In this document: positions 11,625 to 63,134 of the stretch, one piece after another
Layout of the letters: the number at the start of each line of letters is the position of its first letter
How positions within the stretch are numbered: position 1 is the stretch's first letter
Position numbers and translations under genes: made by a program
NCBI RefSeq assembly: GCF_000766945.1
Contig: NZ_KN266209.1
Span: 263,374-327,373 of the forward strand
From: Cellvibrio mixtus subsp. mixtus J3-8
Lineage (GTDB): Bacteria; Pseudomonadota; Gammaproteobacteria; Pseudomonadales; Cellvibrionaceae
Direction: 5' to 3'
Length of the DNA stretch: 64,000 nucleotides
The notes under the pieces: model-generated
The model's database searches: none
Seen by the model: only the letters and a program-made list of their open reading frames with translations
What the model was told of the DNA's origin: nothing

Positions 11625-12032
11625 GGAGCGCCGCTACCTGATCAGTTGCACGCATTATAGGTGGTTACAGGCATCGACAACAAACTTCACCCTATTGGTT
11701 ATACCTCACGCACGTGTTTTTAATTGATCATCACCTGATTCGGTAAAAACAACAGCCTGTATTTTCACCAACAATGGCAACCGCACTGACGAGGAATTTG
11801 AACTATTGCGATTTCAACTGGCGGATTGGTTTTATCAACATCTGTAAAAAACTTGCCTTATAAATCACGATTAATTTTTCTTTTCCAACAATTTCCCGAA
11901 TATTTTCTCGCGCGGGCTGAAGCAAAAACAACACTCGATAAGTGGCACAATTTTCGCTGTGTCTGATTGCGCAGTTATTAAAAATATTTGCAAAGAATAA
12001 ATTATTGTTTTTGACCGGTGTTGGAGCCAGCC
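11625..12032. other. Intergenic region between divergent genes
   Basis: About 400 bases separate the glycosyltransferase start (minus) from the aminotransferase start (plus), so promoters for both must lie here. The sequence is AT-rich in the right half. I found no convincing hairpin terminator, riboswitch or RNA gene. Reading frames in this stretch lack coding character. Confidence 0.5.
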
Positions 12033-13358
12033 ATGGAAAAATTTTCAGGAATTTCACGTCGCGCGTTATTGCGCGGTTCAGTCGCAGCCGCTGTTGCGGC
12101 GAATGGTTTAGCGCTCTCTCGGCCTTTATTGGCGCAAACAGGTTTTCCGTTGCCAAAAATCCTGGGAACCGATGCGAGTAAAAATGCGCGCGTTGAAAAA
12201 TACTGGGACCAGATCGCCAGCTTATTCAAGTTATCGCCGGATTTTATTAATCTGGAAAATGGTTTTTACGGTGTACTTTCCAAACCGGTACTCGCTGAAT
12301 ACCAACAACACATTGCGCGGCTTAACGAAACCAGTTCGTATTTTTTACGGCAGCAGTATGCCCAGGAAGCCGCAAAAATTCGCGCGCAAATTGCCGAGGT
12401 TGCGGGTGTTGATGTGAGCGAAATTGCGTTAACGCGCAATGCCACTGAAGCATTGCAAAATTTAATTGTGAATTACAATAAACTCAAACCCGGCGATACT
12501 GTGCTTTACGCTGATCTCGATTACGACAGTGCCCAGGAGAATATCGAATATTTGCGTGAAACGCGCGGCATTAACACCGTAAAAATTACGCTTCCGGAAC
12601 CGGCCACGTATGAATCCATCATCGAAACCTATGAGCGGGCGTTTGCGGAACATCCGCGTATTAAATTAGTGTTGTTAACGCACATTGGCCATCGCACTGG
12701 CCTGGCGATTCCAGTAACGGAAATCGCGGAACTCGCCAAACAAAAAGATATTGATGTATTAGTGGATGCAGCCCATTCATGGGGCCACCTGGATTTTAAA
12801 GTCCCTGAATTAAAAGCCGACTTCGGCGCATTTAATTTGCATAAATGGATTGGCGCACCCCTGGGTGTGGGGTTTATTTATATTCGCAAGGCAAAACTGG
12901 CGGCGATTAATCCGCATTTAGTCAGCAGTGAAAAAGCCGCGACCGATATCAGCTCGCGCGTGCACACCGGCACTACCGCGACCGCGAATGTACTTACCGT
13001 GCCAGCGGCACTGGATTTCCATCGCCAACTCGGCCCAGCTAACAAAGAAGCGCGCTTGCGTTACTTGCGCGATTACTGGGTGACGCGTGTGCGCCAGGAA
13101 ATTCCCAATATCCAGATCCTTACGCCCGATGATCCACGCCTTTACGGCGCAATTACGTCGCTGCGCATCAAAGGCAAAACCGGTAAGGCTGACAACCAAT
13201 TGCTAGCGCAGCAACTGCGCGAACAACACAATATTTTTACCGTGGCGCGCGGTGGTGCTGCCTCCGGCGATAGCGTGCGCATTACGCCGGCGATTTTTAC
13301 GCGCACCAGCGACCTGGACAAATTGGTCGCCGCGTTGAAAACGGTGGCGCGAAGCTGA
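12033..13358 (+). CDS. Tat-exported class V PLP aminotransferase (isopenicillin-N-epimerase-like)
   Basis: Start chosen at the ATG at 12033, with TTGGAG nine bases upstream; a GTG at 12018 is in frame but less likely. The N-terminus carries a twin-arginine signal (ISRRALLRGS, hydrophobic Ala-rich core, then PLLAQ), so a folded enzyme would be moved to the periplasm. The fold-type I core shows RNATEALQNLI, DLDYDSAQ, DAAHSWGHL and the PLP lysine in FNLHKWIGAPLG. This is the class V subgroup containing isopenicillin N epimerase-like and selenocysteine lyase-like enzymes; the substrate is unknown. A TonB-dependent receptor follows by 76 bases, suggesting use of an imported compound. Confidence 0.88.
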   Translation: MEKFSGISRRALLRGSVAAAVAANGLALSRPLLAQTGFPLPKILGTDASKNARVEKYWDQIASLFKLSPDFINLENGFYGVLSKPVLAEYQQHIARLNETSSYFLRQQYAQEAAKIRAQIAEVAGVDVSEIALTRNATEALQNLIVNYNKLKPGDTVLYADLDYDSAQENIEYLRETRGINTVKITLPEPATYESIIETYERAFAEHPRIKLVLLTHIGHRTGLAIPVTEIAELAKQKDIDVLVDAAHSWGHLDFKVPELKADFGAFNLHKWIGAPLGVGFIYIRKAKLAAINPHLVSSEKAATDISSRVHTGTTATANVLTVPAALDFHRQLGPANKEARLRYLRDYWVTRVRQEIPNIQILTPDDPRLYGAITSLRIKGKTGKADNQLLAQQLREQHNIFTVARGGAASGDSVRITPAIFTRTSDLDKLVAALKTVARS

Positions 13359-13434
13359 TGGCTTGATTGCGGCGACTGACCCGACAAATCCCCTGACCAC
13401 ATTGGCGTAAGCCATTTATCGCAAGGAGTTACTT

Positions 13435-15852
13435 GTGCACGCTCTTTTTTTGCCTGAAAAAAATCGCTTGTCACTGTTCATTAGTGCATTGCTGTTAAGC
13501 AATATATCGTTGGCAAGCGCCCAGGAATTACTGGCGCCGGCCGATGGGCGCGGTGGTGCGGACGTGGAAACATTAATCGTTACCGGCACCCGCGAACGCG
13601 GCACCAGCGCGCGTGAAAGCAGCTCACCGGTTGAGGTGATTTCTGCTGAAACATTAAAAGCCACCGGCCAGGTGAATTTGATCGATAGCTTGAGCAAGCT
13701 GGAGCCTTCGTTTTATGTACCAGCGCGCAGTGGCGACGTGGGTAACCTGACCCGGCAAGCGCAAATCCGCCAATTGGGGCCGAACCAGACATTGGTATTA
13801 ATTAATGGCAAACGCCGCCACCAGACCGCCATCGTCAACGCTTCTGCGACCTTTGCCGGCGCTACGGGTGTGGACCTTGCGCAAATTCCGGTAACGGCAA
13901 TTGAACGCATCGAAGTGTTAAAAGATGGCGCGGCCGCGCAATACGGCACCGATGCAATCGCCGGCGTGATCAACGTGATCCTTAAATCCGATAAAGAAAA
14001 CGGCGTGTTGAATATTGATTACGGCACTTATGGCTCGAGCGATATCAACCCGCAGCGCGAAGACAAGGGCGAAAATCGCCATGTCGCCGTGAACAATGGT
14101 TTCAGTGTGGGTGATGAGGGTTACCTCAACCTGAGCCTGGAGTGGACCGATAAGGACCACACCAATAATTCCGGCCAGCATCCCACCATTCAAGCCGCGA
14201 ATATTCCCAGCCCCGGTTGGGTAAACCGCATCGCCGGCGAACCGGCGTATGAATTGTTTACCCTGGGTTTTAATGCGGGCACCAAAATAGGTGATGATCT
14301 TGAACTCTATGCATTCGGCACCGCTGGCCAACGCGAGGCGGTAGCGCAGCAGAATTTCCGCCGCTACAACTCGGCGCCGGCGATTTACCCCAAGGGCTAT
14401 ATTCCCACTATTGGTATCGATGAGACCGACTATGCGCTCACCACCGGCATTGAAGGTCAATTCCTCGGCGATGGCCATTGGGATTTGAGCACCACCTATG
14501 GCGCCGATGAAGCCGATGTGCTGGTGAAGAATTCCGCCAACCTGAATCTGCTTGCCGATACCGGCAGCACGCCCAGGGATTTTTACAACGGCACGTTCAA
14601 CAATAGCCAGTGGACCACCAACCTGGATTTAAGCAAACCGGTTGCGCTGGATTTCCTGCCCGCGCCGCTGAATCTGGCCGGCGGAACCGAATATCGCCAT
14701 GAAACCTACCAACTCGAAGCGGGCGATGCAGCCTCGCGTTACAAAGCTGGCTCACAGGCATTCCCCGGTTACCAGTTCACCGACGCGCGCGATGTGGAGC
14801 GCGATATTGTTGCGGTGTACACCGAACTGGGCACGCGCTTTACGCCGGAATGGCAAGTGTCGTTGGCGACGCGCGCGGAGCATTACAGCGATGCCGGCGA
14901 TACCGCCATCGGTAAACTGGCGACCCGTTACGATTTCAATCCGCGCTTCGCATTGCGTGCGACGGCCAGCACCGGCTTTCGCGCACCCACGCTCGCCGAA
15001 CAAAATTTTTCTGCGACTAACGTAACGCCCACCGTTTCCAATATCCAGTTAGCCGTTAATTCACCTGCTGCAAAATTGTTAGGTGCGCCACGTTTGAAGC
15101 CGGAGGAGTCTGAAAATATTAGCCTCGGTTTGGTGTTTGAACCGCTGGAAAAAGTTTTCGCATCGATTGATGTATTCCAGATTGATATCGACGAGCGAAT
15201 TATTAATACCGGCAATTTAAATGGCCCGGCGGTGCGCGATGCAATCGCCAGCAACGGTATTTTTTTCCAGGGCAGTTCCGCCAACCTCGCGTTTTTTACC
15301 AACGGCGTGGATACCCAAACCAAAGGGGTGGATCTGGTGCTGGACTGGAGCACTGACCTGGAAGCCTACGGGCAAATCCGCTGGAACCTGACCGGCACGC
15401 GCATTAAAACGGAAGTCACGCATATCAAAAATGCATCGCTGCAATTGGGCGGTGGTTTATTGATTACACCGGTTATTATTTCGGGATTGGAAGACAGCAC
15501 GCCGGAACATAAAATCTCGCTCAGCGCGAATTATTACCTGGGCAACTTTAATGCTTTATTGCGCCTGACGCGTTACGGCGAAAGTTCACAATTATCATCC
15601 GACGCCGGCACCGGACTCGCGCCGTTTACGCTAAATACCATTTCACCCGCGACGCTAACGGATATCGCCTTGGGCTACGATTTTAACGATGCCTTCTCGC
15701 TCACCCTGGGCGCCAATAATCTGTTTGATAAACACCCCGGGGAAACTATCCCTATTACACGCGGTGCAACCAATGCATCGGTCTACCCGACTTTTGCGCC
15801 CTATTCGGTGGATGGAACTTATTACTACTTGCGTAGCAGTTTCCGGTTTTAA
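13435..15852 (+). CDS. TonB-dependent outer membrane receptor
   Basis: The start is GTG at 13435 with AAGGAG eight bases upstream. The 805-residue product has a signal peptide ending near LASAQE. A likely TonB box/plug entry is VETLIVTGTRERG. The plug domain contains LVLINGKRRHQT and IERIEVLKDGAAAQYGTDAIAGVINVILK. A long beta-barrel follows and ends in the terminal aromatic YLRSSFRF, typical of outer-membrane proteins. It imports an unknown ligand using TonB energy. Pairing with the exported aminotransferase suggests an amino-acid-derived or small organic substrate, but that is inference. A terminator follows. Confidence 0.92.
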   Translation: MHALFLPEKNRLSLFISALLLSNISLASAQELLAPADGRGGADVETLIVTGTRERGTSARESSSPVEVISAETLKATGQVNLIDSLSKLEPSFYVPARSGDVGNLTRQAQIRQLGPNQTLVLINGKRRHQTAIVNASATFAGATGVDLAQIPVTAIERIEVLKDGAAAQYGTDAIAGVINVILKSDKENGVLNIDYGTYGSSDINPQREDKGENRHVAVNNGFSVGDEGYLNLSLEWTDKDHTNNSGQHPTIQAANIPSPGWVNRIAGEPAYELFTLGFNAGTKIGDDLELYAFGTAGQREAVAQQNFRRYNSAPAIYPKGYIPTIGIDETDYALTTGIEGQFLGDGHWDLSTTYGADEADVLVKNSANLNLLADTGSTPRDFYNGTFNNSQWTTNLDLSKPVALDFLPAPLNLAGGTEYRHETYQLEAGDAASRYKAGSQAFPGYQFTDARDVERDIVAVYTELGTRFTPEWQVSLATRAEHYSDAGDTAIGKLATRYDFNPRFALRATASTGFRAPTLAEQNFSATNVTPTVSNIQLAVNSPAAKLLGAPRLKPEESENISLGLVFEPLEKVFASIDVFQIDIDERIINTGNLNGPAVRDAIASNGIFFQGSSANLAFFTNGVDTQTKGVDLVLDWSTDLEAYGQIRWNLTGTRIKTEVTHIKNASLQLGGGLLITPVIISGLEDSTPEHKISLSANYYLGNFNALLRLTRYGESSQLSSDAGTGLAPFTLNTISPATLTDIALGYDFNDAFSLTLGANNLFDKHPGETIPITRGATNASVYPTFAPYSVDGTYYYLRSSFRF

Positions 15853-15896
15853 TCCACGGATTTTTTCACTCCCGAGCGTTTCACTCTCCACGAGTT

Positions 15897-15922
15897 GCCA
15901 GGCAGCGATGCCTGGCTTTTTT
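15897..15922 (+). terminator. Rho-independent terminator after the TonB receptor gene
   Basis: A perfect 8-bp stem, GCCAGGCA/TGCCTGGC with loop GCGA, is followed by six T residues. It lies 45 bases after the receptor stop. Confidence 0.85.
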
Positions 15923-15948
15923 ATCGGGCGGCGCACATCCGGCGCTAA

Positions 15949-16068
15949 TTAATGCTCGCGGTGCGCGTCCGCTTTTTTATCCACTACGGCTAACGCCACA
16001 CCGCCGATAAACAATAAAATCAAAACCGCCACCAAAGCACCAGTACCAACAATACCTGAAACTAACAT
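15949..16068 (-). CDS. 39-aa single-span membrane peptide, paralogue A
   Basis: The ORF encodes 39 residues beginning MLVSGIVGTG, then a hydrophobic helix (ALVAVLILLFIGGVALAVV), then a charged tail DKKADAHREH. The ribosome site GGAGAA precedes the ATG. Two similar ORFs lie at 17544-17666 and 17888-18007. All three share a short polar start with Ser and Ile/Val-Gly, one transmembrane helix ending in (L/V)V(D/E), and an Arg/Glu/His-bearing tail. This makes real translation much more likely than for an isolated small ORF. Function unknown; likely an inner-membrane microprotein tied to the neighbouring envelope cluster. Confidence 0.75.
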   Translation of the reverse strand: MLVSGIVGTGALVAVLILLFIGGVALAVVDKKADAHREH

Positions 16069-16265
16069 AGTGATTTCTCCATCTGGAATCGCGCTGGTTA
16101 TCAGCGCCCTCAGGAGTAGGTTGCGCCTTTGCGGGCAGGTATTTTTTGATATCGATCAAGCAATTTTTTACAGCATTTGATCTGGCGCAAACAAAGAAAA
16201 AACTGTGTAAACCTATTCTTGTCTCTCTACAGCGCGTGCATTGCCCACGTCATCGCTGGAAATAA

Positions 16266-17396
16266 TTATTCAATCAAATTCATCAGCGGTGTTTTTATCG
16301 CCGCGTCCGGCGTAACGGGTACCGATGAAGATGTTGCTGATGGGGTGCTTTCCGGTGAGTCCGCTACATTGTCACTTGCGGCGCCGGCGACCACCGTAAA
16401 ACGCAAAATACCGATTAACTGGTTAGCTTCTGTCACCACATGGATTTGCCAGCGGCCGAGGGCATTCTCGGGGAAATTCACTTTATGGCTCCAGGCGCGA
16501 TAACCGGCTTCGCGGCCGCCGTTAATGTCCAGCGCGACCTTATCCACCAATTTTCCATTCAATAGCCAGACGTGGTAGATACGTTCGTTTAAACCGCGCG
16601 GTGCATGGATCGCGGTGTACGCATAGAGGCCTTTACGTAAATCTGCCTGGCTTAATGTTTTGAGGTGATTTTCCGGTGCGCGGTTGGCGTCGTCGATGGA
16701 ATGGGTAATAGCAACCTCGGTCAACCACAAGGTTGCCGGAGGAATCCATGGCCGCGCCCATAATCCCGCCGCACCCAAGACTCCCGCCAGGATTAAGACC
16801 AACAGTCCGCGCTTCCACCATCGCCATTGGGACTCGCTGGCGACTGCGGCCAGGGTCACCAGCAACGCAATAGCCAACGCCCAGTAATAACTTTTGGCAG
16901 TGGGCAAATGAAAAATAATCGGCAATGCCGTTAACAGAATGGCAAATAACGTAAGGCCATGAAACGTGAAATACCAACTGCGGCGCGGCACCAAACCGCG
17001 AAAGTAAATGGGATCAACAATAGAAATGACCGCAGCGATCATCAACAAACCTGTATAAATTGCCTGGCCGCTGTTCCACGCTGTCGTAATAAAAAAGAAC
17101 GGGATCACGAAGAACAGGCTTTCCTGATGGACGAGCTGGGTCGCATACGCAAAGAGCGGTTGCGGCAACTGGAAACCGAACCATCGAAATACCAGTCGAT
17201 GCATGCTTTTTTCCATCAATAACCAGCACCAACTCGCCAGAATTAATGCCGCGAGTATTTGTGCCAATTCCTGCTTGCGCTCAACCAATAGAAAACTGGC
17301 TACGCCCGAACCGAATCCAAAGAGCGGGATCGCCCACGGAAAGCGGTCGGATAGTGCAATGACCTTGGGGGCCAGATCGCTGAGAAATTTAAACAT
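16266..17396 (-). CDS. DUF5924-type membrane protein with C-terminal DUF2914 domain
   Basis: The N-terminal ~220 residues hold about six to seven hydrophobic segments, for example WAIPLFGFGSGVASFLLV and YYWALAIALLVTLAAVA. The C-terminal ~130 residues form a soluble domain with the DUF2914 pattern ERIYHVWLLNGKLVDKVAL followed by GRWQIHVVTEANQLIGILRF, probably periplasmic. The molecular function is unknown. It lies between two of the 40-aa membrane peptides and next to the ATP-grasp/7TM-transglutaminase genes, which suggests a shared envelope role. A 147-base gap upstream allows its own promoter. Confidence 0.8.
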   Translation of the reverse strand: MFKFLSDLAPKVIALSDRFPWAIPLFGFGSGVASFLLVERKQELAQILAALILASWCWLLMEKSMHRLVFRWFGFQLPQPLFAYATQLVHQESLFFVIPFFFITTAWNSGQAIYTGLLMIAAVISIVDPIYFRGLVPRRSWYFTFHGLTLFAILLTALPIIFHLPTAKSYYWALAIALLVTLAAVASESQWRWWKRGLLVLILAGVLGAAGLWARPWIPPATLWLTEVAITHSIDDANRAPENHLKTLSQADLRKGLYAYTAIHAPRGLNERIYHVWLLNGKLVDKVALDINGGREAGYRAWSHKVNFPENALGRWQIHVVTEANQLIGILRFTVVAGAASDNVADSPESTPSATSSSVPVTPDAAIKTPLMNLIE

Positions 17397-17543
17397 CCTT
17401 CACCCTGGGTGTATTTAGCAATCCAGATTACGTAATTAAAGGACACCCAAAATGCCGAACTTACTCACTTTCGCAATTAGGCCGAACGACCATCACACCA
17501 CTAAGCCACGTTAAATCTTACTTTCACTGGAACCACGCAGGCT

Positions 17544-17666
17544 CTATTGCAAAAAGCGGGAAGGTTCACGTTGATGGTCAACCAGGGTTAACGCAGCGCC
17601 CACCACCAGCAATACCGTGAAGGCACCAATCAGTAACGTACTCGCAATTACACCGGAAACTAACAT
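17544..17666 (-). CDS. 40-aa single-span membrane peptide, paralogue B
   Basis: The ORF encodes 40 residues beginning MLVSGVIAST, with hydrophobic core LLIGAFTVLLVVGAALTLV and tail DHQREPSRFLQ. A strong ribosome site, GAGGAGA, precedes the ATG. The first five residues are identical to paralogue A, and the helix and VD junction align without gaps. A terminator at 17828-17857 separates it from paralogue C upstream, so it probably has its own promoter in the ~160 bases between. Function unknown. Confidence 0.75.
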   Translation of the reverse strand: MLVSGVIASTLLIGAFTVLLVVGAALTLVDHQREPSRFLQ

Positions 17667-17827
17667 GGTAATGTCTCCTCATTTTCAGACACATTACTTT
17701 GACCGCCGGACTCTGGTGATGTTTGACGCCTCTTACTGCGCCTTTATCATCGATTGGATAAACGGGAGAAATTAAAATAATGTGACGTTATTAGTATTCT
17801 TACCGCACTACCAAAATATCGATCGAA

Positions 17828-17857
17828 AAAAAACCGGGCACGCTGGCCCGGTTTTTT
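17828..17857. terminator. Terminator downstream of paralogue C
   Basis: A 12-bp stem (AAAAAACCGGGC/GCCCGGTTTTTT, loop ACGCTG) has runs of A on the left and T on the right, so it can act in both directions. It ends the minus-strand transcript of the 17888-18007 ORF and the ATP-grasp operon before it. Confidence 0.85.
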
Positions 17858-17887
17858 CATTTCATTGCCGCGTGCAGCAAACTTATC

Positions 17888-18007
17888 TCAATGTTCACGC
17901 GAAGCCGCCAGGCGACCCTCAATGACCGAGAGTGCAAAGCCAATCAGGATGATAAGTGCAAACGTACCCATTAACAGACCTGGCCCAACAATAGCTGATG
18001 TCGACAT
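17888..18007 (-). CDS. 39-aa single-span membrane peptide, paralogue C
   Basis: The ORF encodes 39 residues beginning MSTSAIVGPG, with core LLMGTFALIILIGFALSVI and tail EGRLAASREH. The final REH matches the end of paralogue A, and the start matches MLVSGIVG-type starts in spacing. GGAG lies eight bases before the ATG. It starts 53 bases after the ATP-grasp gene stop and ends before a strong terminator, so it is most simply the last gene of that operon. This links the peptide family to the ATP-grasp/7TM genes. Function unknown. Confidence 0.75.
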   Translation of the reverse strand: MSTSAIVGPGLLMGTFALIILIGFALSVIEGRLAASREH

Positions 18008-18060
18008 AAATAATGCTCCAACTGTATGGCGATGCTCGCCGTTGATTAAAAAATAAAAAG

Positions 18061-19107
18061 TTACAACCCATCTGCCGTGAATGTTTTCATCACGTAATCC
18101 ACACGCTGCTCGGCCGTGCGATGCATGCGCTCTTTCAGCGATTCGATATGGCGCAAACGTGGCAACAGGCCACGGCCATTGGCGACCTGGATTGCCAGGC
18201 CGGGCCGGGCGTTGAGTTCCAGCAATTGCGCACCGCGTACTTTATCCAATACCAGATCGGTACCGATATAACCCAGGCCCGTCATTTCATAACAACGCGC
18301 GGCAAGCAACAACCAATTGCGCCAGTGGGCGATTTCGATCTCATTGAGCGCGCGTTTGGTATCGGGGTGATGGGTAACCGGTTTGGAATGTTGTACGGCG
18401 TTGAGCGCACGCCCGGTGGCAATATCCAGCCCCACCCCCACCGCGCCCTGGTGCAGGTTGGCTTTGCCGTCGGACTTGTGGGTGGCGAGGCGCAACATCG
18501 CCATCACCGGATAACCTTTAAAAATAATGATGCGGATATCCGGCACGCCTTCGTAGGAATAATCCTTGAAGTAGTCGTCGAACTGGATCAGGTCCTCCAC
18601 GATCACCACATCGGGTTTACCGCCCAGGGAATAGAGGCCCGCGAGGGCGTTACTCATGTGGCGGCGAATATCTTCAATGCTGATTTCCACACCCGAGGAT
18701 TTGATGAACTTGTCCCCGCGGCGACCGATGATTACCAGGATACCCTTGCCGCCCGAGCCTTTGGCCGGCTTCACCGCAAAGGCTTCCAGCGCCATCAACT
18801 TGTCTTCGATGTGGGAAATCTCGTGCTGGGAGTTGACCACAAAAAACAGCTTGGGCGTGGCGACTTCGTATTCTTCCGCCAGCAACTTGGTCTTGAGTTT
18901 GTTATCCACCAGCGGGAACAGGCTGCGCGGGTTGTACGCCGCGATAAAATCGTGGTTGCGGCAGTTCATTCCCAGTATGCCCATGCGCTTCAAACGCCAG
19001 GGGCTGACCCAGGAATTCCACCAGCGCTTGATGCCTGCGGGTGCCGCCAGCGCTGGCTTGGTCACCGGAGCAGTTGCCGGTGTAGACGCCGGAGCTGATT
19101 CACTCAT
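18061..19107 (-). CDS. Alpha-L-glutamate ligase-like ATP-grasp protein
   Basis: The 348-residue ATP-grasp enzyme is of the RimK-like kind. The ATP-binding glycine loop is KPAKGSGGKGI near residues 112-122, and the metal-binding end motif is ELNARPGLAIQVANGRG near 294, so the catalytic residues look intact. It would join an amino acid or amine to a carboxylate via an acyl phosphate; the substrate is unknown. The gene start overlaps the stop of the upstream 7TM gene by four bases. This pairing of ATP-grasp ligase, inactive transglutaminase with 7TM, and retropepsin-like protein is a recurrent bacterial neighbourhood described for amidoligases. Confidence 0.87.
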   Translation of the reverse strand: MSESAPASTPATAPVTKPALAAPAGIKRWWNSWVSPWRLKRMGILGMNCRNHDFIAAYNPRSLFPLVDNKLKTKLLAEEYEVATPKLFFVVNSQHEISHIEDKLMALEAFAVKPAKGSGGKGILVIIGRRGDKFIKSSGVEISIEDIRRHMSNALAGLYSLGGKPDVVIVEDLIQFDDYFKDYSYEGVPDIRIIIFKGYPVMAMLRLATHKSDGKANLHQGAVGVGLDIATGRALNAVQHSKPVTHHPDTKRALNEIEIAHWRNWLLLAARCYEMTGLGYIGTDLVLDKVRGAQLLELNARPGLAIQVANGRGLLPRLRHIESLKERMHRTAEQRVDYVMKTFTADGL

Positions 19108-20660
19108 GACTCAGCTCCTTTGCGCTCCTGGCTATTCTGGTTATCCACCATGGCGCGGAAACGGCGCAGTTCGGAAAGTTTGTAGCCGGTGTATTGACCC
19201 ATCAACATGATCAGCGCCAGCGCCACCAGGTTCAGCTCGGGGAAGTTGAACGTGAGGTGCCCCACCAGCGGGAATTGCATCAAGGTATACGCCAGTACCG
19301 CAACCAGCAAGCTGCCACCGCCCTGTACCATGACCTCCTTGGGGCCTTCTTCTTCCCAAAGGATGGACATGCGCTCAATGGTCCAGGCGATGATGATCAT
19401 CGGGAAGAAAGTGATGGTCATGCCGGTGTTAAAGCCCATCTGGTAACCGATCAGGCTGAGCGCGGAAATAATGAAAATCACCAGCACCACCAGCGTCGCA
19501 ATCCGCGAGATCAACAACAGGTTCAAGCGCGATAAATAGGTACGCAACACCAGTCCCATCGCCACTACCGTGACAAAGCTCACCACCCCCAACACCAGCG
19601 ACGTTTGCAAAAACGCCATGGCGATCAGGATCGGCATAAATGTACCGGAAGTTTTCAGGCCGATAATAATGCGCATAAACACCACCACCAGGGCGCCGAT
19701 AGGCAGCAATAGCAGCAGCTTGAACATACTTTGTTCTTCAATCGGCAAATGCTGGATGCTCAGCACACTGAACGCGCTTTCCTTGAATTGCGCTTTGATC
19801 AGGTCCAGCGCCGGCACGGTTTGGTGGATCATCGAGAAACTCACGCGCGAGCGGTTGCCACCCGCCACATCCAGGATCGATTCGCCACCGGTATGCCATA
19901 ACAACAGGTTTTCCGGCACGCCTTGCTCGCCGGTGGTCGGGTTAAACAGCACCCACTCGTGGCCGTCGTATACCTGGACCAGCCGGGTCAGGTTCTGGTG
20001 GCGACGGGCATCTTCCAGGTAAAGACCGAGGGCAGGGCGCGCCGGGATGCCGGCCTGGTTGATCAGTTTTTCCACCAGCGCCGAACGATCAGTTTGGGCG
20101 GATAACAACAGCGCCGCGTTCTGGTCGAGGTTATCGCTGTTGAGCAATTTGATCAGTTCCCGCGTCAGGCTTTGCGGGCTGCTGGATTTGCTCCAGGCGG
20201 TATCCAGTACTTGTTGGGCGGCGGTTTCCTGTGAGGAGCCATCCCAATCGACATGGGCGGGTGTAGGTTGCCCGGTGGGAATATCGTGGGCAGCTTCATC
20301 ATCTACATCAATAAACTGGGTCTTGTAATAGATAGTCTGCGGGCCAATCGCCTCGCGCTTGGACCACTCGCCCCGGCGCACGCCGTTTTCCGCTACCACC
20401 GAATAACCATAACCGGGTGCTGCGGCTTGCTCGCTGAAGCTGCGATAGCCGGGCGGGTTATCCGGCAAGCCCAGGCGCGCAGTGACCGGTTCACCGGTCG
20501 CGTCAAAATCGATCCGCGCTTCAATCAGCCATACCGGTTTTTGCACACCGGGGGTAAAGGGGATTTCCATCTGCACATGGCGCATCCAGGCGGTAACCAA
20601 ACCGATCAGGGCCAGCATGCCAATGACAGTGTAAAACGGGGCACGGGAGGGTTTTTTCAT
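19104..20660 (-). CDS. Inactive transglutaminase-like protein with 7TM domain
   Basis: Start chosen at the ATG at 20660, with AGGAAC nine bases upstream; a TTG at 20678 is possible but weaker. An N-terminal anchor helix is followed by a periplasmic region to about residue 300. That region resembles a transglutaminase core (QAGIPARPALGLYLED, VYDGHEWVLFNPTTGE) but lacks the catalytic Cys and His at the expected places. The C-terminal ~220 residues contain about seven membrane helices. Such proteins are thought to bind peptides or present substrates rather than catalyse. The stop is coupled to the ATP-grasp start. Confidence 0.87.
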   Translation of the reverse strand: MKKPSRAPFYTVIGMLALIGLVTAWMRHVQMEIPFTPGVQKPVWLIEARIDFDATGEPVTARLGLPDNPPGYRSFSEQAAAPGYGYSVVAENGVRRGEWSKREAIGPQTIYYKTQFIDVDDEAAHDIPTGQPTPAHVDWDGSSQETAAQQVLDTAWSKSSSPQSLTRELIKLLNSDNLDQNAALLLSAQTDRSALVEKLINQAGIPARPALGLYLEDARRHQNLTRLVQVYDGHEWVLFNPTTGEQGVPENLLLWHTGGESILDVAGGNRSRVSFSMIHQTVPALDLIKAQFKESAFSVLSIQHLPIEEQSMFKLLLLLPIGALVVVFMRIIIGLKTSGTFMPILIAMAFLQTSLVLGVVSFVTVVAMGLVLRTYLSRLNLLLISRIATLVVLVIFIISALSLIGYQMGFNTGMTITFFPMIIIAWTIERMSILWEEEGPKEVMVQGGGSLLVAVLAYTLMQFPLVGHLTFNFPELNLVALALIMLMGQYTGYKLSELRRFRAMVDNQNSQERKGAES

Positions 20661-20731
20661 GGGATTTGTTCCTGGCAAAGCCGGTGCATGGACCGGCTCT
20701 ACTTGTTAATCACAGATAGTAGAAGCAAGGC

Positions 20732-21541
20732 CTAGTTTTTGGCCGCGGCTGAGCTGGAAGCATCGCTGCGCTGGAGCGGGGCGAGGTTATTGCCGCTAAC
20801 ATCCACCAGCATCACATCGCGCAACAGGTTGCGGCCAATCAGGATGGGATATTCAGAGGTACTGCGGTCCGCGAGGATAAATTCACCGCGCTGGTTCAGC
20901 TTGCCGATGGTAAAGCGGATTTCCACTACCGGCCGGCGATCCGGCGTCGGGTTGGAAGTCTGAACGGTCTGGAAACGCAGGCGCTTGCGTTCAAGCACAT
21001 GGGGCTCCTTGGTATCCGGATTGAAAATGGTAAAGCGCACCCACTCTTCGCCGTTGCGCTCGAACATTTGGATATTACGGGCATCAATCACCGAGTTGGC
21101 GACATTGGTATTGATACGGGCATTCATCACCACATTCAAACCGGCAATTAATGTCTGCTCGCGTAAACCGACGATTTGTTTGTCCGTCTGGCCCTGGTCT
21201 TTGGCATTGGCTTTTTTAGCACCATTGTCTACCGGGGCCGGACAATCGGCTTTGGGGATCAACCGCTCAACTACCTGGGGCCTGGCTTCCAGGGCTTTTT
21301 GCTGCAAGTCCAACTGGCTTTGAAGCTGCTGCAATTGGGCGAGGATTTGGGTCTGCTGCTGGCCATGTTCGGCACTGTGGGCCTGGTGTGCCGCAATACA
21401 TTCTTGTGCACTGGCCAGATTGGCCTGGTTTTGCTGCTGCAGTTTTTGGCTGGTACATGCATTGAGCGATGCCAATGCCAGGGTAAGCAGGCCGAAACGA
21501 TACAAAGTACGGCCACAAGGAAAATGGGTTTTTAGTTTCAT
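20732..21541 (-). CDS. Retropepsin-like (ATP-dependent zinc protease family) lipoprotein, catalytic motif altered
   Basis: A lipoprotein signal with lipobox SLNAC is followed by a helical Gln-rich coiled-coil-like stretch (LAQLQQLQSQLDLQQKAL), then the conserved domain. Family members usually carry AKIDTGAKTS-type catalytic sequence. Here the aligned stretch reads ARINTNVANS, with Asn for the catalytic Asp and Asn for Gly, near residues 142-150. The rest of the domain matches (NGEEWVRFTIFNP, YPILIGRNLLRDVMLVD). This predicts a non-catalytic, periplasmic-facing lipoprotein. The start is uncertain: ATG 21541 is chosen, and GTG 21562 is the alternative. It is probably first in the operon with the 7TM and ATP-grasp genes. 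Confidence 0.8.
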   Translation of the reverse strand: MKLKTHFPCGRTLYRFGLLTLALASLNACTSQKLQQQNQANLASAQECIAAHQAHSAEHGQQQTQILAQLQQLQSQLDLQQKALEARPQVVERLIPKADCPAPVDNGAKKANAKDQGQTDKQIVGLREQTLIAGLNVVMNARINTNVANSVIDARNIQMFERNGEEWVRFTIFNPDTKEPHVLERKRLRFQTVQTSNPTPDRRPVVEIRFTIGKLNQRGEFILADRSTSEYPILIGRNLLRDVMLVDVSGNNLAPLQRSDASSSAAAKN

Positions 21542-21655
21542 CACAACAACCGGCAATATCACGAGGGTGAAAATGGTTATAAAAATTCGAGTGGGCTAAT
21601 TGTAGCTGCTAGGGCCGGTTAAACACACGCCCCCTTAGGTAAATCCACTTGGCTT

Positions 21656-55775: not shown

Positions 55776-56849
55776 TTAACGATGCTTGATCTTATCGCCT
55801 TCTTTCAAACCTTTAATGATTTCAATATTGATACCGTCAGAAATACCGGTTTTAACCTCACGCTTTTCGAATTTTTGCGGGCCGGTTTCTACTTCCACAA
55901 ATTGCGCTTTTTCTTCCACAATCAGGTTGCCTTCATTAATGGCGATGACGTTTTCTTTCTTGTCCAGAACGATATCGGCATTGGCGCTGTAATTGGAACG
56001 CAGGAATAATTTCTCACTCAATTTCACGGCCGCGCGGATCTGGAATTTAATCGTACCCTGATCGGTTACGCCCTTCGGAGAAATATATTCAAGTTTGGCA
56101 GTAAAAGGTTCGCCTTCCAGGGCGCCAACGTCCAATACCAATTCCATACCTTCGCGAATTTTGCCTACCTCCGATTCATCTACCATACCTTCAAAAATCA
56201 TGTCCTTCATATCCGCCAATGTGGCGATAGTAGTGCCTGCACCAAACGAACTGGTCTCAACAATAAATGCACCTTCTTTATAAGGCAGATCCAGAATCAT
56301 ACCGGTGACAGTTGCCGGGATCATGTTTGACACTTTGTCAGATTTCTTGGTCGCACCGGATTTCATCAACAATAAATTGTTTTCTGCCGATGTCACAGCT
56401 TCACGCTGCAAGTCGTAATTCAATAGAAACTTGTTGTACTCAGATGCAGAAATTAATTTATCGGCAAAGAGTTTTTTCTGGCGATCAAACTCAACCGTGG
56501 CATTTTGCAAATTCAATTTTGCAGTTTCCAGTTGGGATTCAGCCTGGTTAAGCAACACCATACTCGGAGCAAGCGTAATCTTGGCGATGATATCGCCTTT
56601 ATTTACGTTCTGGCCGGCAACAACATACAACTGCTCCACCACACCGGATACTTGCGATTTAATTTCCACTTCGCGACGTGGAATCACTTTACCCACGGCG
56701 ACTGTCTTTTTCACGATGGTAGTTTTAAATACAGCATCAGAGGTGTAGGTAACGGGTTTCTCCTGGGATTTGTTATACAAAAATACCGCTGTGCCGATAA
56801 ACACAACCGCAATCAAACCCAACACTGCGTACCAAATAAACTTTTTCAT
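55776..56849 (-). CDS. MacA/HlyD-type periplasmic adaptor subunit
   Basis: The 357-residue protein has an N-terminal membrane anchor (WYAVLGLIAVVFIGTAVFLY). The lipoyl half-motif is EIKSQVSGVVEQLYVVAGQNVNKGDIIAKI, followed by an alpha-helical hairpin (LNQAESQLETAKLNLQNATVEFDRQKKLF) and a beta-barrel/C-terminal region. It would link the inner-membrane ABC transporter to an outer-membrane channel. No TolC-like gene is present in the window. It is the last gene of the export locus. Confidence 0.9.
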   Translation of the reverse strand: MKKFIWYAVLGLIAVVFIGTAVFLYNKSQEKPVTYTSDAVFKTTIVKKTVAVGKVIPRREVEIKSQVSGVVEQLYVVAGQNVNKGDIIAKITLAPSMVLLNQAESQLETAKLNLQNATVEFDRQKKLFADKLISASEYNKFLLNYDLQREAVTSAENNLLLMKSGATKKSDKVSNMIPATVTGMILDLPYKEGAFIVETSSFGAGTTIATLADMKDMIFEGMVDESEVGKIREGMELVLDVGALEGEPFTAKLEYISPKGVTDQGTIKFQIRAAVKLSEKLFLRSNYSANADIVLDKKENVIAINEGNLIVEEKAQFVEVETGPQKFEKREVKTGISDGINIEIIKGLKEGDKIKHR

Positions 56850-56921
56850 GGTGTCCTTCTTTGCTATTGCTGAAAAAAATGTTTTTAGAATATGTAACGG
56901 TTAAACAGGTAAAATTCCTGA

Positions 56922-58187
56922 CTATTCATCTTGCAGCGCAACGATTGGATTTACGCCCGCTGCTTTGGCTGCTGGCATCAACGATGCAAGCAAACCCGAT
57001 ATTACTAATACAATTAACGCCGTGAATGCCGTGGTAAAATCCACTTCCGGTTTACCAAAAAATCCTGCTTTTCCACCGCTGGCTTCCAGCAATTTGGCGA
57101 TACCTTCCAACAGCAACACGCCCATTACCAAACCGAAATACCCCGCTACGGTGGTGATGAAAATCGATTCCTGGACAATCATGCCGATAATAGAATTAGG
57201 TGTGGCGCCGAGCGCTTTGCGCAAACCGATTTCGCGCGTGCGCTCTTTCACTACGATCAGCATGATATTCCCCACTCCGATCGCACCAGCCATGATGGTG
57301 CCAATCGCTACGACCCAACTGAATACTTTTATGCCAGTAAACAAACCTTCGATTTTGTCGAATTCGTTTTGCAAATTAAAACTGCCAAATACACCGACGT
57401 CATTGGGGTCTACTTTTTTTAATTCAGAGAGATATTTTTTTACATTCTCCTCTGCGACGCGCGCATGCAAACCCGGTTTGGGCTGGATAACAAAACTGCC
57501 GATCCATCCAACCTGGTTAAAGGCGTAGCGCAGGGTATCGTTGGGAATATAAATTTTTTCCTCTTCCTGCTGCTGGTTACCATTAGCAAGTGATTTAAAT
57601 ACACCAACTACTTTAAAACTGATGCCGTTGATAGTGATATCAGCACCGACAGGGTTTTCACCTTCGGCAAACAGCTGCGTGCGTACACGTGTACCGATGA
57701 TAACGGTCTTGCGTTTTTCGCGATCATCAAACTCATTGATGCTGCGGCCTTCGATCATTGCCAGTGAGTTAATGTTTTCCATCTTTGCGTGTATCCCTTC
57801 CACAAAGAACGTACCGTTTTTATCCTTGTGTACCGCATAAGGCGGCGTCCCACTCCAGATACCTACGGAATTTTGGCCGCGAATAAAACCGACACTGGGC
57901 ACATTTTTTTCGATCGCGGCAACATCTTCCGGTTTAAAGGCGATTTGCCTGCCGATTGGCATACCCTGGTAAGGCAATTGCGTATGACCTTGTACCCACA
58001 CCCACACAATATTGGGTACGCGCGGGAAACCTTCGTTTACTCCATTTTCCAATCCCTTACCCGCTCCAAGCAGAACGGTAAGCATAAAAATGCCCCAGAA
58101 CACACCAAAGGCAGTCAATGTGGTACGCAATTTATGTTGGCCAAAAGTTTTAAAAATCTCTTGCCACTTTTCGGTATCAATAATCAT
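56922..58187 (-). CDS. MacB-like ABC permease, type 2 (copy 2)
   Basis: The 421-residue permease has one N-terminal helix after KLRTTLTAFGVFWGIFMLTVLLGAG, a ~220-residue periplasmic MacB_PCD domain, and three C-terminal FtsX-like helices (VVAIGTIMAGAIGVGNIMLIVVKERTREIGLRKALGA). No ATP-binding domain is fused. Its closest relative here is the permease at 60414-61673: both begin with a DxxKWQEI-type sequence and share the same layout. It follows the other permease (58200-59435) by 12 bases. Confidence 0.9.
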   Translation of the reverse strand: MIIDTEKWQEIFKTFGQHKLRTTLTAFGVFWGIFMLTVLLGAGKGLENGVNEGFPRVPNIVWVWVQGHTQLPYQGMPIGRQIAFKPEDVAAIEKNVPSVGFIRGQNSVGIWSGTPPYAVHKDKNGTFFVEGIHAKMENINSLAMIEGRSINEFDDREKRKTVIIGTRVRTQLFAEGENPVGADITINGISFKVVGVFKSLANGNQQQEEEKIYIPNDTLRYAFNQVGWIGSFVIQPKPGLHARVAEENVKKYLSELKKVDPNDVGVFGSFNLQNEFDKIEGLFTGIKVFSWVVAIGTIMAGAIGVGNIMLIVVKERTREIGLRKALGATPNSIIGMIVQESIFITTVAGYFGLVMGVLLLEGIAKLLEASGGKAGFFGKPEVDFTTAFTALIVLVISGLLASLMPAAKAAGVNPIVALQDE

Positions 58188-58199
58188 CAGTGGTTCCTG

Positions 58200-59435
58200 C
58201 TAATCCGCACGCATGGCTTCAATCGGCATAATTTTCGCCGCACGCAGTGCGGGTACCAGGCCCGCCAACGCACCGACAACAATCAATAAAATAATGGCCG
58301 TAATGGCAACCTGAAAATTAACTTCCGGATTTTTAAAGAATGGCAATTGCGCGCCCACGGAATTCAATCCAAATGAAATCAATTCAATTAAACCTACCCC
58401 CATAACCAGGCCCGCGTAACCGGCGATACTCGTCACCAGGATCGATTCCAGCAACAAGGTACTTACAATACTGAACGGTGTCGCGCCGAGCGCTTTGCGA
58501 ATACCGATTTCACGGGTGCGCTCCTTCACGGTAATAATCATGATATTGCTCACGCCCACAATACCCGCCATTAACGTGCCCAGTCCTACAAACCAGATAA
58601 ATGAATTAATACCGAGGAATAATCCGTTCACCATTTTCGCTGGCTCCGCCATATTGAATGAGCGGATTGCGCGTTTATCTTCCGGTGATACCGAATGGCG
58701 GCGCTGTAATAATTCGATTACCTTTTTCTCTACTTCAAAACCATCCAACCCTAAATGCGGACGCAACCAGATAGAGCCGATGCGATTACTGGTACCAAAC
58801 ATTTTCTGGAAAGTTGATTGCGGGATGTATACGCGCTCTGAATCGCGTCCGCGGTTTCCTTTGTCGTAAAACACACCCACTACTTTCATTACCACACCGT
58901 TAACGCGAATATCTTTATTGACCGGATCCACATCCTTGCCAAACAAACGTTCCGCCACAACAGTGCCGATCACAGCAATTTTGCGTAATTCTTTTTCATC
59001 AAACGGATTCAGTTTGCGCCCCAGGTTAAAGGGAATACTTTCTTTCACATCAAAATATTCATCGGGCACACCATGCACACCGAAGCTGGCATTCTTGCGC
59101 CCATACACAAGTGAAATGCCATCGCGCTGGCTTTCAGCGGCGATAAAACGAACCTCGGGAATTTGTTGTTTGATTGCATCGACATCGTCTTGTGTTAACT
59201 GGATTTGCCGACCCAACCCCATGCCTTTGTAAGCCACCGAGGTTGTACCTGTGTAGGCGATAATAAAATCCAGTACATCGGAGCCGAAATCTTCATAAAC
59301 ACCGTTTTGCATACCGCGCCCGGCCCCGAGCAGCAGTATCAACATAAATATTCCCCAAAACACACCAAATGCAGTGAGCGCAGTGCGTAATTTATTCATA
59401 CGCAAGGTGTAGAGAATTTCCTGTAAACCGTCCAT
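58200..59435 (-). CDS. MacB-like ABC permease, type 1 (copy 2)
   Basis: This 411-residue FtsX/MacB_PCD permease starts MDGLQEILYTLRMNKLRT, with a periplasmic domain and three C-terminal helices (FVGLGTLMAGIVGVSNIMIITVKERTREIGIRKALGA). It is most like the 61688-62938 product, which starts MDSLQEILFTLRQNKLRT. It lies 22 bases after the ATPase gene and is probably part of the same export complex, forming a heterodimer with the next permease. Confidence 0.9.
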   Translation of the reverse strand: MDGLQEILYTLRMNKLRTALTAFGVFWGIFMLILLLGAGRGMQNGVYEDFGSDVLDFIIAYTGTTSVAYKGMGLGRQIQLTQDDVDAIKQQIPEVRFIAAESQRDGISLVYGRKNASFGVHGVPDEYFDVKESIPFNLGRKLNPFDEKELRKIAVIGTVVAERLFGKDVDPVNKDIRVNGVVMKVVGVFYDKGNRGRDSERVYIPQSTFQKMFGTSNRIGSIWLRPHLGLDGFEVEKKVIELLQRRHSVSPEDKRAIRSFNMAEPAKMVNGLFLGINSFIWFVGLGTLMAGIVGVSNIMIITVKERTREIGIRKALGATPFSIVSTLLLESILVTSIAGYAGLVMGVGLIELISFGLNSVGAQLPFFKNPEVNFQVAITAIILLIVVGALAGLVPALRAAKIMPIEAMRAD

Positions 59436-59457
59436 ATCGCCTTCTTATAGGTAGCAA

Positions 59458-60186
59458 TCAACCAAGGATTTCTTCTTCATCCTGATCGGCAATTTCGTTG
59501 GCATGATGAGAGTGATGATGATGACCAGAAACAATTAATCCATCTTTTAAAATAATCTGGCGCTGGGTTTGGTCAGCAATATCCTGTTCGTGGGTAACAA
59601 TCACAATGGTGTTACCCAGTTGATGGATTTCTTTCATCAACGACATTACTTCTTGCGTCGTCTGGCTATCCAGCGCACCGGTCGGTTCGTCCGCAAGAAT
59701 TACTTTGGGTTTGGTTACCAATGCGCGTGCAATAGCCACACGTTGTTTTTGTCCACCCGACATTTCATTGGGCATGTGTTTGGCGCGATGGGAAAGACCT
59801 ACCATTTCCAGATATTTATCAGCGCGGTAATTGCGCTCTTTTCGACTTATACCCTGGTAATACAACGGCAATGCAACATTCTCGGTCGCATTTTTAAATG
59901 GCAATAAGTTGAACGATTGAAAAACAAAACCGAGCAATTCATTGCGCAATTTAGCGGCGGTTTTTTCTTTTAGATTTTTAATTTCGCGACCGGCGAGAAA
60001 ATAATCGCCCTCATCGTGGCTATCCAGGATACCGAGTATATTTAACAATGTAGATTTGCCGGAACCTGATGACCCCATGATCGATACCAATTCACCTTCG
60101 CGGATATGCAAATCAATTCCCTTTAGCACATGCAAAGGCTGCTCACCGGAATGGTAGTATTTGTGGATGTTATGTAATTTGATCAT
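59458..60186 (-). CDS. MacB/LolD-type ABC ATPase with His-rich tail
   Basis: The 242-residue ATPase has Walker [10 protein letters not shown], the Q-loop [11 protein letters not shown], signature [15 protein letters not shown], Walker B VILADEP and the switch His in VIVTHEQD. It is the only ATPase in the locus, so it presumably serves both permease pairs. The C-terminus is unusual: after the normal end there is a His-rich patch, GHHHHSHH, then an acidic tail DQDEEEILG. These could bind metal or regulate the protein; this is inference. AGGAAG precedes the ATG. Confidence 0.93.
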
Positions 60187-60282
60187 GATGGCTTCCTGTT
60201 ATCTGTATGCTGTGAGCCTGATGTACCTCTCACCAGCTTAGAGGCTTTTGCACTGTTCTCCGATTACATTTACGTTGACTTA

Positions 60283-60301
60283 ACACTTTTGTGACAAGTG
60301 T
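60283..60301. promoter_or_regulatory. Inverted repeat upstream of the ATPase gene
   Basis: ACACTT/AAGTGT with a 7-base spacer lies in the 227-base gap between the upstream permease gene and the ATPase gene. Position suggests an operator or a second promoter region. The match to any known regulator is not established. Confidence 0.3.
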
Positions 60302-60413
60302 CAGTACCTATCGATTAACGAGTATCGGTTGATAAACTTTGACCGGTGCATTTTGCCGCTGTTATTTCATTGGATGTGTATCTAATTGTTTTGGATTCAC
60401 TCGCGCGAAAAAA

Positions 60414-61673
60414 TTATTCATCCTGCAATGCAGTTATAGGATTTACCGACGCGGCCTTGGCGGCGGGCAAGAGTGCAGCGAGAACACCGGTTAACACCAA
60501 AACGCTTAATGCCATAAGGGCGATTTTGATATCAATATAAGGTGAAGCAAATAATCCCTCACCCTGCCCCAACTTGATCAGCAGCGCGCGAATACCTTCT
60601 AGCAGTAATACCCCGGTTGTAAGCCCGGCGTAACCGGCAATAAATGTAATTACTAATGATTCATGGATAATCATTAAACTGATATTCGTCGGTGTTGCCC
60701 CCATGGCTTTGCGCAAACCAATCTCACGTGTGCGTTCTTTCACAACCACCAACATAATATTACCGACGCCGATCACACCAGCGATGATAGTGCCAATCGC
60801 GACCATCCAGCTAAAGCCCAACACCCCGTCAACCAGGCCGCGATTCATCTGGTAGTTTTGTTCCATATTAAAACCTCCAATCACGCCAGTATCGTTCGGA
60901 TGAATCTTTTTACGCTCATATAACAATTTTTTTACGTCGCGCTCCATATCAAAAGCGCTGAAACCGGGTTTGGGTGAAAAAAACAAAACGTGAAAAGCAT
61001 CCATCTGGTTAAAAGCCTGGCGCAAGGTTTCATTGGGTAAAAATATTTTGCCGTTAGCTTCTTGTGCACCATCGGGTTCATTGGATTTATAAATACCGAC
61101 AACTTTAAATTTTACGCCGCCAACAATAATGGACTCACCAATGGGATTAACACCATTTTTAAATAGCACTTCTTTTACACGTGTGCCTATTACGGCGATT
61201 TTTCGTTTTTCTTTTTCATCAAGCGGGTTAATGAAACGGCCTTCGATCATGCGGATAAATTCAAAGGGCTCCCAACCGGCATGGGTGCCCGATACTGAAA
61301 AAGAACCACTTTCTTTACCGTAAACAATATATTGCGCCGCACCAAAGTTACCGAGGTTATTTTTACCATCGACCAGATTTACCGACGCAATAGATTGGCG
61401 AATTGCATCCACATCCTCCTGGGTAAATTTTATTGCACGGCCTTTACTTAATCCTTCAAAACTGAGTTGGGTAGTATTGGAGGTCCAAAAAATCACCACA
61501 CTTTTTGCATCACCAAAAATTTTTTCAATTTTAGTTCCAAAGCCGGTGCCAAAACCGAGCAGTATCACTAACATAAAAATGCCCCAGAAAACCCCGAACG
61601 CCGTTAGGCCGGTGCGTAATTTTTGCTTGCCTAAGCTGGTGAGTATTTCTTGCCACTTATCCACATCAAACAT
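60414..61673 (-). CDS. MacB-like ABC permease, type 2 (copy 1)
   Basis: The 419-residue permease has the same layout as the 56922-58187 product: DVDKWQEILTSLGKQKLRTGLTAFGVFWGIFML at the start, a periplasmic MacB_PCD domain, and C-terminal VAIGTIIAGVIGVGNIMLVVVKERTREIGLRKAMGA. It has no ATPase domain. It begins 14 bases after the type 1 permease, with an AGGAAGT site, so these two form the first pair of the locus. Confidence 0.9.
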   Translation of the reverse strand: MFDVDKWQEILTSLGKQKLRTGLTAFGVFWGIFMLVILLGFGTGFGTKIEKIFGDAKSVVIFWTSNTTQLSFEGLSKGRAIKFTQEDVDAIRQSIASVNLVDGKNNLGNFGAAQYIVYGKESGSFSVSGTHAGWEPFEFIRMIEGRFINPLDEKEKRKIAVIGTRVKEVLFKNGVNPIGESIIVGGVKFKVVGIYKSNEPDGAQEANGKIFLPNETLRQAFNQMDAFHVLFFSPKPGFSAFDMERDVKKLLYERKKIHPNDTGVIGGFNMEQNYQMNRGLVDGVLGFSWMVAIGTIIAGVIGVGNIMLVVVKERTREIGLRKAMGATPTNISLMIIHESLVITFIAGYAGLTTGVLLLEGIRALLIKLGQGEGLFASPYIDIKIALMALSVLVLTGVLAALLPAAKAASVNPITALQDE

Positions 61674-61687
61674 AATTTACTTCCTGT

Positions 61688-62938: not shown

Positions 62939-63134
62939 GACGATTTCCCAATCGAAAGTAGTAGTAACACGGGAACTTGAGGGATTTGACGCACCCGTCA
63001 CCCGATTGGATTCATTTCTGGTTTTTTTATTTAACGTGTACCTATGGGTGCATGCTTCAAATTAACACATGCATCAACCTCTGCAGGTGGTTTCTTCCAT
63101 AAAAGGCGCATAACAATTACCAACGGCAAAAAAT

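Follow-up and report, generated by a model that had tools for sequence, protein, structure and literature searches.

Three peptides of 39-40 residues, encoded between positions 15949 and 18007 of the window (the whole 64,000-nucleotide stretch of the Cellvibrio mixtus subsp. mixtus J3-8 genome analysed here), belong to one family of small proteins whose features suggest small helper helices, at least one of which would function at low oxygen, more than components of the envelope machinery encoded nearby. The most widespread of the three, p1, is preceded by a perfect FNR/Anr box and is likely to act as an accessory helix in low-oxygen physiology. The preliminary description had taken all three peptides, from their location, to be small partners of the membrane complex encoded beside them. 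It was right about the genes and mostly wrong about why they are located there: a single family, selection at the protein level and the place of p3 at the end of the rlo operon are all supported, and the partnership of all three is not.

Annotation overlooks subunits that consist of a single helix, in respiratory as in other membrane complexes, and such subunits are hard to assign. The family described here has no Pfam or NCBIfam model, yet it bears a clean oxygen-regulator signature, and the apparent capture of a paralogue by another operon is visible in it. It is also a warning that, for such small genes, operon adjacency is no proof of partnership.

Table 1. Features of the window, in window coordinates.
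Feature	Position	Strand	Remarks
p1, 39-aa single-span peptide	15949..16068	-	most widespread member of the family; orthologues, selection and helix model studied
Perfect FNR/Anr box TTGATCGATATCAA	16146..16159 (G000:C3:279519-279532)	-	first base 91 nt 5' of the p1 ATG
Second, degenerate box TTGCGCCAGATCAA	16177..16190	-	exactly 31 nt upstream of the perfect box
DUF5924 + DUF2914 membrane protein	16266..17396	-	neighbour, linkage inconsistent
p2, 40-aa paralogue	17544..17666	-	in 4/21 genus genomes; no FNR box
Inverted repeat TTTATC-N8-GATAAA	17743..17762	-	upstream of p2; in 3/4 p2 genes; by eye
Terminator-like hairpin CCGGGC...GCCCGG + T run	17828..17857	-	right after p3; by eye on the minus strand
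p3, 39-aa paralogue	17888..18007	-	start 53 nt 3' of the RloC stop; reads as terminal rlo gene
RloC-type ATP-grasp ligase	18061..19107	-	TIGR02291, above cut-off
RloB-type inactive transglutaminase + 7TM protein	19104..20678	-	Pfam above cut-off; NCBIfam RloB model below its cut-off
RloA-type retropepsin-like peptidase	20732..21562	-	Pfam Zn_protease above cut-off; NCBIfam RloA models below theirs

A family of single-span peptides in Cellvibrio

The earlier account of the three open reading frames holds in its coordinates, the minus strand, the lengths (39, 40 and 39 residues for p1, p2 and p3) and the GGAG ribosome site at each gene; all three start with ATG. The design it gave them, with a short polar start, a helix of about 19 hydrophobic residues closing in V(D/E) and a charged tail, holds as well except for the closing motif in p3, which reads VIE. 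Two of the peptides, p1 and p3, end in REH as claimed, and the charged tail is approximately net neutral and so gives no clear indication of topology. That this likeness exceeds chance is confirmed by a search of the whole 5.18-Mb genome with p1, in which p3 (E 0.008) and p2 (E 0.046) were the sole further matches at E <= 10. A profile-profile comparison of the p1 and p3 families matched 39 columns with an E-value of 4e-9. The length of 39 residues recurs in 15 of the 17 p1-like proteins and in 7/7 p3 proteins, and D30, R37 and H39 are invariant across 11 aligned family rows.

None of the three peptides has a match above cut-off in Pfam or NCBIfam, and the scan of further family members (16 in each database) gave nothing over the cut-off in NCBIfam and nothing better than E 0.015 in Pfam. 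Solved structures returned three matches at E <= 10, the best of which, photosystem II PsbX (E 0.17), we take as chance, and no title among the literature matches listed names such a peptide family. The identity of p2 as GPS-CTERM was considered and rejected (25.1 bits, below the cut-off of 28, with 3 of 16 members matching), and we read this match as a generic transmembrane tail. Judged by these comparisons, the family is real, has no name so far, and consists of Cellvibrio-restricted small proteins that are predicted to lie in the inner membrane with a single helix.

A family profile built from 16 sequences was searched in 120 genomes of the taxonomic family, 21 of which are from the same genus, and in 293 genomes of the order, which include our own genome and some members of the taxonomic family. 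Reading of the matched loci placed a p1-like gene in 17 of the 21 genus genomes, two of these genes being diverged (G012 and G015), and p3 in seven; p2 is the rarest of the three (Table 1). One genome (G009) carries one extra, longer paralogue, which has no FNR box. No acceptable family member was found in G003, G006, G008 and G017 (best E 0.034 in G006 and 0.33 in G017); because these are assemblies of ~210-470 contigs, loss of p1 is not certain for each of the four. The stretches fetched around glyQ in G003, G006 and G008 contained neither p1 nor a box of at least 9/10 matching bases, and the glyQ search gave no match in G017.

Strong profile matches are restricted to the genus. The best matches outside it (E 5.6e-4 and 9.1e-4) are each partial and within a long frame, and the loci of four weak matches (G062, G175, G214 and G039), when read, held no small open reading frame with a box of at least 9/10; the remaining weak matches were judged by E-value and by the long frames containing them. 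A pattern scan of genome contigs confirmed four loci, three from Cellvibrio and one from a gammaproteobacterial MAG. Orthologues were found across Cellvibrio, with nothing convincing in the other genera searched.

The earlier argument that selection acts on the protein is supported by the pattern of substitution. Pooled in-frame pN/pS is 0.32 for p1 (n = 15, a set that omits the two most diverged sequences), 0.40 for p2 (n = 4) and 0.27 for p3 (n = 7), as compared with 0.82-1.59 when the genes are read in either of the remaining sense frames. The antisense frames give 0.95-2.06, bar one (0.39-0.53) whose third positions coincide. The expected codon-position bias is also found in p1, with 1083, 779 and 2323 differences at positions 1, 2 and 3, respectively.

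The structure model of p1, for which the three window peptides served as input, shows a single helix spanning residues 2-38 with a mean pLDDT of 85.7. Among 14 p1 sequences, conservation over residues 5-30 is concentrated on one side of the helix (p = 0.0001), with a best period of 102 degrees, and the addition of the two diverged p1 sequences again gave p = 0.0001. The signal is weaker across all 27 family sequences (p = 0.045, or 0.086 when restricted to residues 7-29), and in p3 taken by itself there is no one-face conservation (p = 0.25). A single contact face, whether with a partner or between copies of the peptide, would produce such one-sided conservation.

The p1 promoter and putative control elements of p2 and p3

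An exact copy of TTGAT-N4-ATCAA, which we take to be the FNR/Anr consensus, lies ~71-118 nt 5' of the ATG in 16 of the 17 p1-like genes, with variation in the middle four bases; the sole gene without an exact copy, that of G002, has 9/10 matching bases at 64 nt. A second half-site with 8 or 9 of 10 matching bases is found further 5' in 15/17, at a distance of exactly 31 nt (11/17) or 50 nt (4/17), and is absent from the p1-like genes of G005 and G012. A CTA-containing -10-like element, identified by eye, stands behind the box in ~12 of the 17 rows. A sigma-70 scan gave 1 site as compared with 3.2 expected. Our own genome contains 16 exact boxes, as opposed to 4 for a reversed-pattern control. 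Of these 16, the surroundings of 15 were read; ccoN, a CcoM-like gene and p1 are each preceded by one of them, and some of the rest are not followed by an obvious gene start. The p1 promoter fits an FNR/Anr regulon, and its box predicts binding of such a regulator and a response to oxygen.

No FNR site of at least 9/10 occurs within 300 nt upstream of p2 or p3. Instead, p2 seems to have a putative operator of its own in the inverted repeat listed in Table 1. The third peptide gene, p3, stands directly behind RloC and is followed by a terminator-like hairpin in 7 of the 14 RloC-bearing genus genomes, and a GC-rich hairpin with a T run was seen by eye 3' of p3 in 7/7 genomes. The computed list of hairpins gives the p3 hairpin on the plus strand only, and its minus-strand reading was made by eye. 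Since p3 starts 53 nt behind RloC and the hairpin follows it in 7/7 genomes, it reads as the terminal rlo gene and may serve rlo; by gene position p3 is the only one of the three that belongs to this operon.

Neighbouring genes and their linkage to the peptides

The large neighbouring genes are identified, from their domain content, as the known rlo operon plus a DUF5924 gene. They correspond to the RloABC operon of Pseudomonas aeruginosa, with the difference that here p1 and p2 lie outside the operon. A study of P. aeruginosa, the only one on Rlo by title among the literature matches, reports that cells lacking the three RloA peptidases regain hypo-osmotic growth when rloB or rloC is lost (PMC12239564). 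The main text of that paper contains none of the terms 'small ORF', 'downstream', 'oxygen', 'Anr' and 'DUF', and our literature search found nothing on DUF5924. The RloA-type peptidase of the window has ~130 residues ahead of its protease domain; by eye, it shows what looks like a lipoprotein signal and a stretch rich in glutamine.

As previously described, p3 is in the window the terminal gene behind RloC, and the DUF5924 gene is flanked by p2 and p1. RloC and DUF5924 are each present in 14 of the 21 genus genomes. In 12 of 17 genomes no more than ~7 kb separates the p1 gene from RloC, and in G012 and G015 RloC is hundreds of kilobases away. Three p1-bearing genomes (G005, G009 and G020, the last of these assemblies being 77% complete) gave no RloC match at E <= 1e-40, and in all three p1 is ~2 kb or less from glyQ (L091, L093 and L103). 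DUF5924 adjoins p1, on either side, in eight genomes and is not beside it in 9 of 17; in 6 of 14 genomes it resides elsewhere, and the 12-16 kb fetched there held no family member. As its position relative to p1 varies, the placing of DUF5924 between p2 and p1 is a local feature. In six genomes (G007, G011, G012, G014, G015 and G018) p1 is immediately 5' of a glycosyltransferase (GT4)-methyltransferase operon.

We also scanned downstream of RloC genes for open reading frames that code for 28-60 aa, include a hydrophobic span, have a ribosome site and start within 900 nt. Loci were available for 30 of 36 RloC matches, one of which was our own, leaving 29 of the 35 non-own genes. Two such reading frames were recovered at our own locus and none at the 29 RloC genes from other genera of the order. 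The proposal that all three peptides are partners of the envelope complex is not supported, in view of this result, of the p1 genes unlinked to RloC (two genomes) or without detectable RloC (three), of the inconsistent position of DUF5924 and of the FNR/Anr-type promoter that p1 owns. As far as sequence can tell, it is the promoter, and not the rlo neighbourhood, that tracks p1.

Between p1 and the glycosyltransferase operon, positions 12018-15852 of the window hold aminotransferase-like and TonB-dependent receptor genes (by eye) on the opposite strand; these two genes are present in our own genome, G010 and G013, and the remaining loci that were read did not show them. In G004, p3 and p1 are separated by ~6 kb of other genes (L090 6421-12385), three of which resemble window genes at 55776-63001 with 24-52% identity.

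Candidate roles and small oxidase subunits

In size and presumed role, the nearest analogues of p1 are CcoM and CydX, though tests of membership in either family fail. CcoM is a small subunit of the cbb3 cytochrome c oxidase, given as 36 aa in P. stutzeri (PMC10433244). Its length class and single span are those of p1, and a low-oxygen promoter of the CcoM kind is predicted for p1 from the exact box in 16/17 genes; of the 18 Cellvibrio CcoM-like genes read, 17 are preceded at 68-82 nt by an exact FNR box, much as p1 is. The difference is that a separate CcoM-like match is present in 19 of the 21 genus genomes (18 read as small open reading frames). We rejected p1 as CcoM on its score (14.3 bits against the NF041600 cut-off of 40), on the match of 3 of 16 family members to NF041600 at E <= 1 (best E 0.021) and on an hhalign probability of 2.8 of 100 (E 0.016, 20 columns); the CcoM-like comparison profile, for genus and order, used 17 of 27 CcoM-like reading frames.

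CydX of E. coli, with 37 aa and a single helix, is likewise part of a terminal oxidase, cytochrome bd. Its motif is YxxWxxGx15E/D (PMC4325964); the window peptides differ in having no Tyr or Trp and for this reason cannot carry it, and p1 was rejected as CydX on this motif. YbgT_YccB of Pfam matched none of 16 p1-family members, blastp of p1, p2, p3 and the p1 of G018 against E. coli CydX gave no match, and a pattern scan of the fetched loci for a CydX-like start returned none that was convincing. Nor is p1 encoded with cydAB, as CydX is apart from its orphans: contig C5 carries our own gene for cytochrome bd subunit I, and p1 is on C3. In E. coli, a cydX mutant is reported to be complemented by a CydX orphan from C. 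japonicus Ueda107 (PMC4325964); it is conceivable, against the motif, that this orphan is p1. YohP-type proteins, a stress-induced small membrane protein type (PMC12719787), are comparable by description in being small, membrane-located and stress-linked.

All 21 genus genomes have both ccoN (18/21 above the family cut-off) and a gene for cytochrome bd subunit I. Neither oxidase therefore needs p1, as the four genomes with no detectable p1 are among these, and co-occurrence is unable to choose a partner for p1.

We consider it an even call that low oxygen induces p1, that the peptide is an accessory helix in a membrane complex, probably a respiratory one, and that its duplicates were rewired, one of them into rlo. 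An FNR/Anr-type regulator would turn on the p1 promoter at low oxygen, and the p1 helix would pack via its conserved face (G5, L12, L16, L19, L26 and D30) onto a larger membrane protein. It would serve there, much like CcoM or CydX, as a modulator or accessory subunit; the complex is most likely a respiratory one used at low oxygen. With p1 as the core member, p2 and p3 would be tandem duplicates without the oxygen box, p3 having turned into the last rlo gene that acts whenever the operon is expressed, and p2 being apparently under a separate operator. A partner of this kind and the order of duplication are inferred. An extension that we find doubtful is that the same membrane machine is given an interchangeable mini-subunit for each stress, p1 for low oxygen, p3 with rlo and p2 through a regulator acting at TTTATC-N8-GATAAA; if true, this three-input rewiring of one duplicated helix module would link respiration to the RloABC envelope pathway.

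The preliminary description favoured binding of the peptides to RloB or DUF5924, which would tune a polyglutamate-related envelope pathway. The position of p3 between RloC and the hairpin in 7 of 14 genomes speaks for it; however, it is rather unlikely given the 0/29 RloC genes outside the genus with such a peptide within 900 nt downstream, the three genomes with p1 and no detectable RloC, the two in which these are unlinked, the unlinked DUF5924 in 6 of 14 and the FNR-type promoter of p1. We rate about as unlikely a role as general membrane stress peptides, homo-oligomers produced when oxygen is low or under another stress and altering membrane properties or respiration with no single dedicated partner. 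This would suit three paralogues with differing control regions, and no tested gene (DUF5924, RloC, cytochrome bd subunit I or ccoN) co-varies with p1. Homodimers are equally compatible with one-face conservation, but the recurrent 39-residue length and the invariant D30, R37 and H39 exceed the needs of bulk hydrophobicity.

Two further explanations appear to us very improbable. Hydrophobic toxins of tandemly multiplied type I toxin-antitoxin loci would share the small size, the hydrophobicity and the tandem paralogues, and p2 has a sub-threshold Fst_toxin match (E 0.069), but Rfam, which covers known families only, gave no match at gathering score across 15500-18500, and the FNR-type promoter of p1, the location of p3 inside an operon, the purifying selection and the conserved tail all argue against toxins. 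It is similarly hard to credit the peptides as leaders or attenuators of a downstream gene, even though the GT4 operon (six genomes) or DUF5924 (five others) lies just 3' of p1: the identity of the downstream gene varies, terminator-like hairpins seen by eye directly follow p3 in 7/7 genomes and p1 in G020, and what is conserved is the amino acids of the hydrophobic span, not a regulatory codon run.

All CcoM-like matches in the genus score under the NCBIfam cut-off, so that annotation with NF041600 would miss these genes. The one in our own genome (G000:C1:668386, L140) encodes 48 aa and has a perfect FNR box 73 nt upstream. In G006 (L204, G006:C145, 2356-3635), an FNR box and a CcoM-like gene lie directly 5' of a cytochrome bd subunit I gene.
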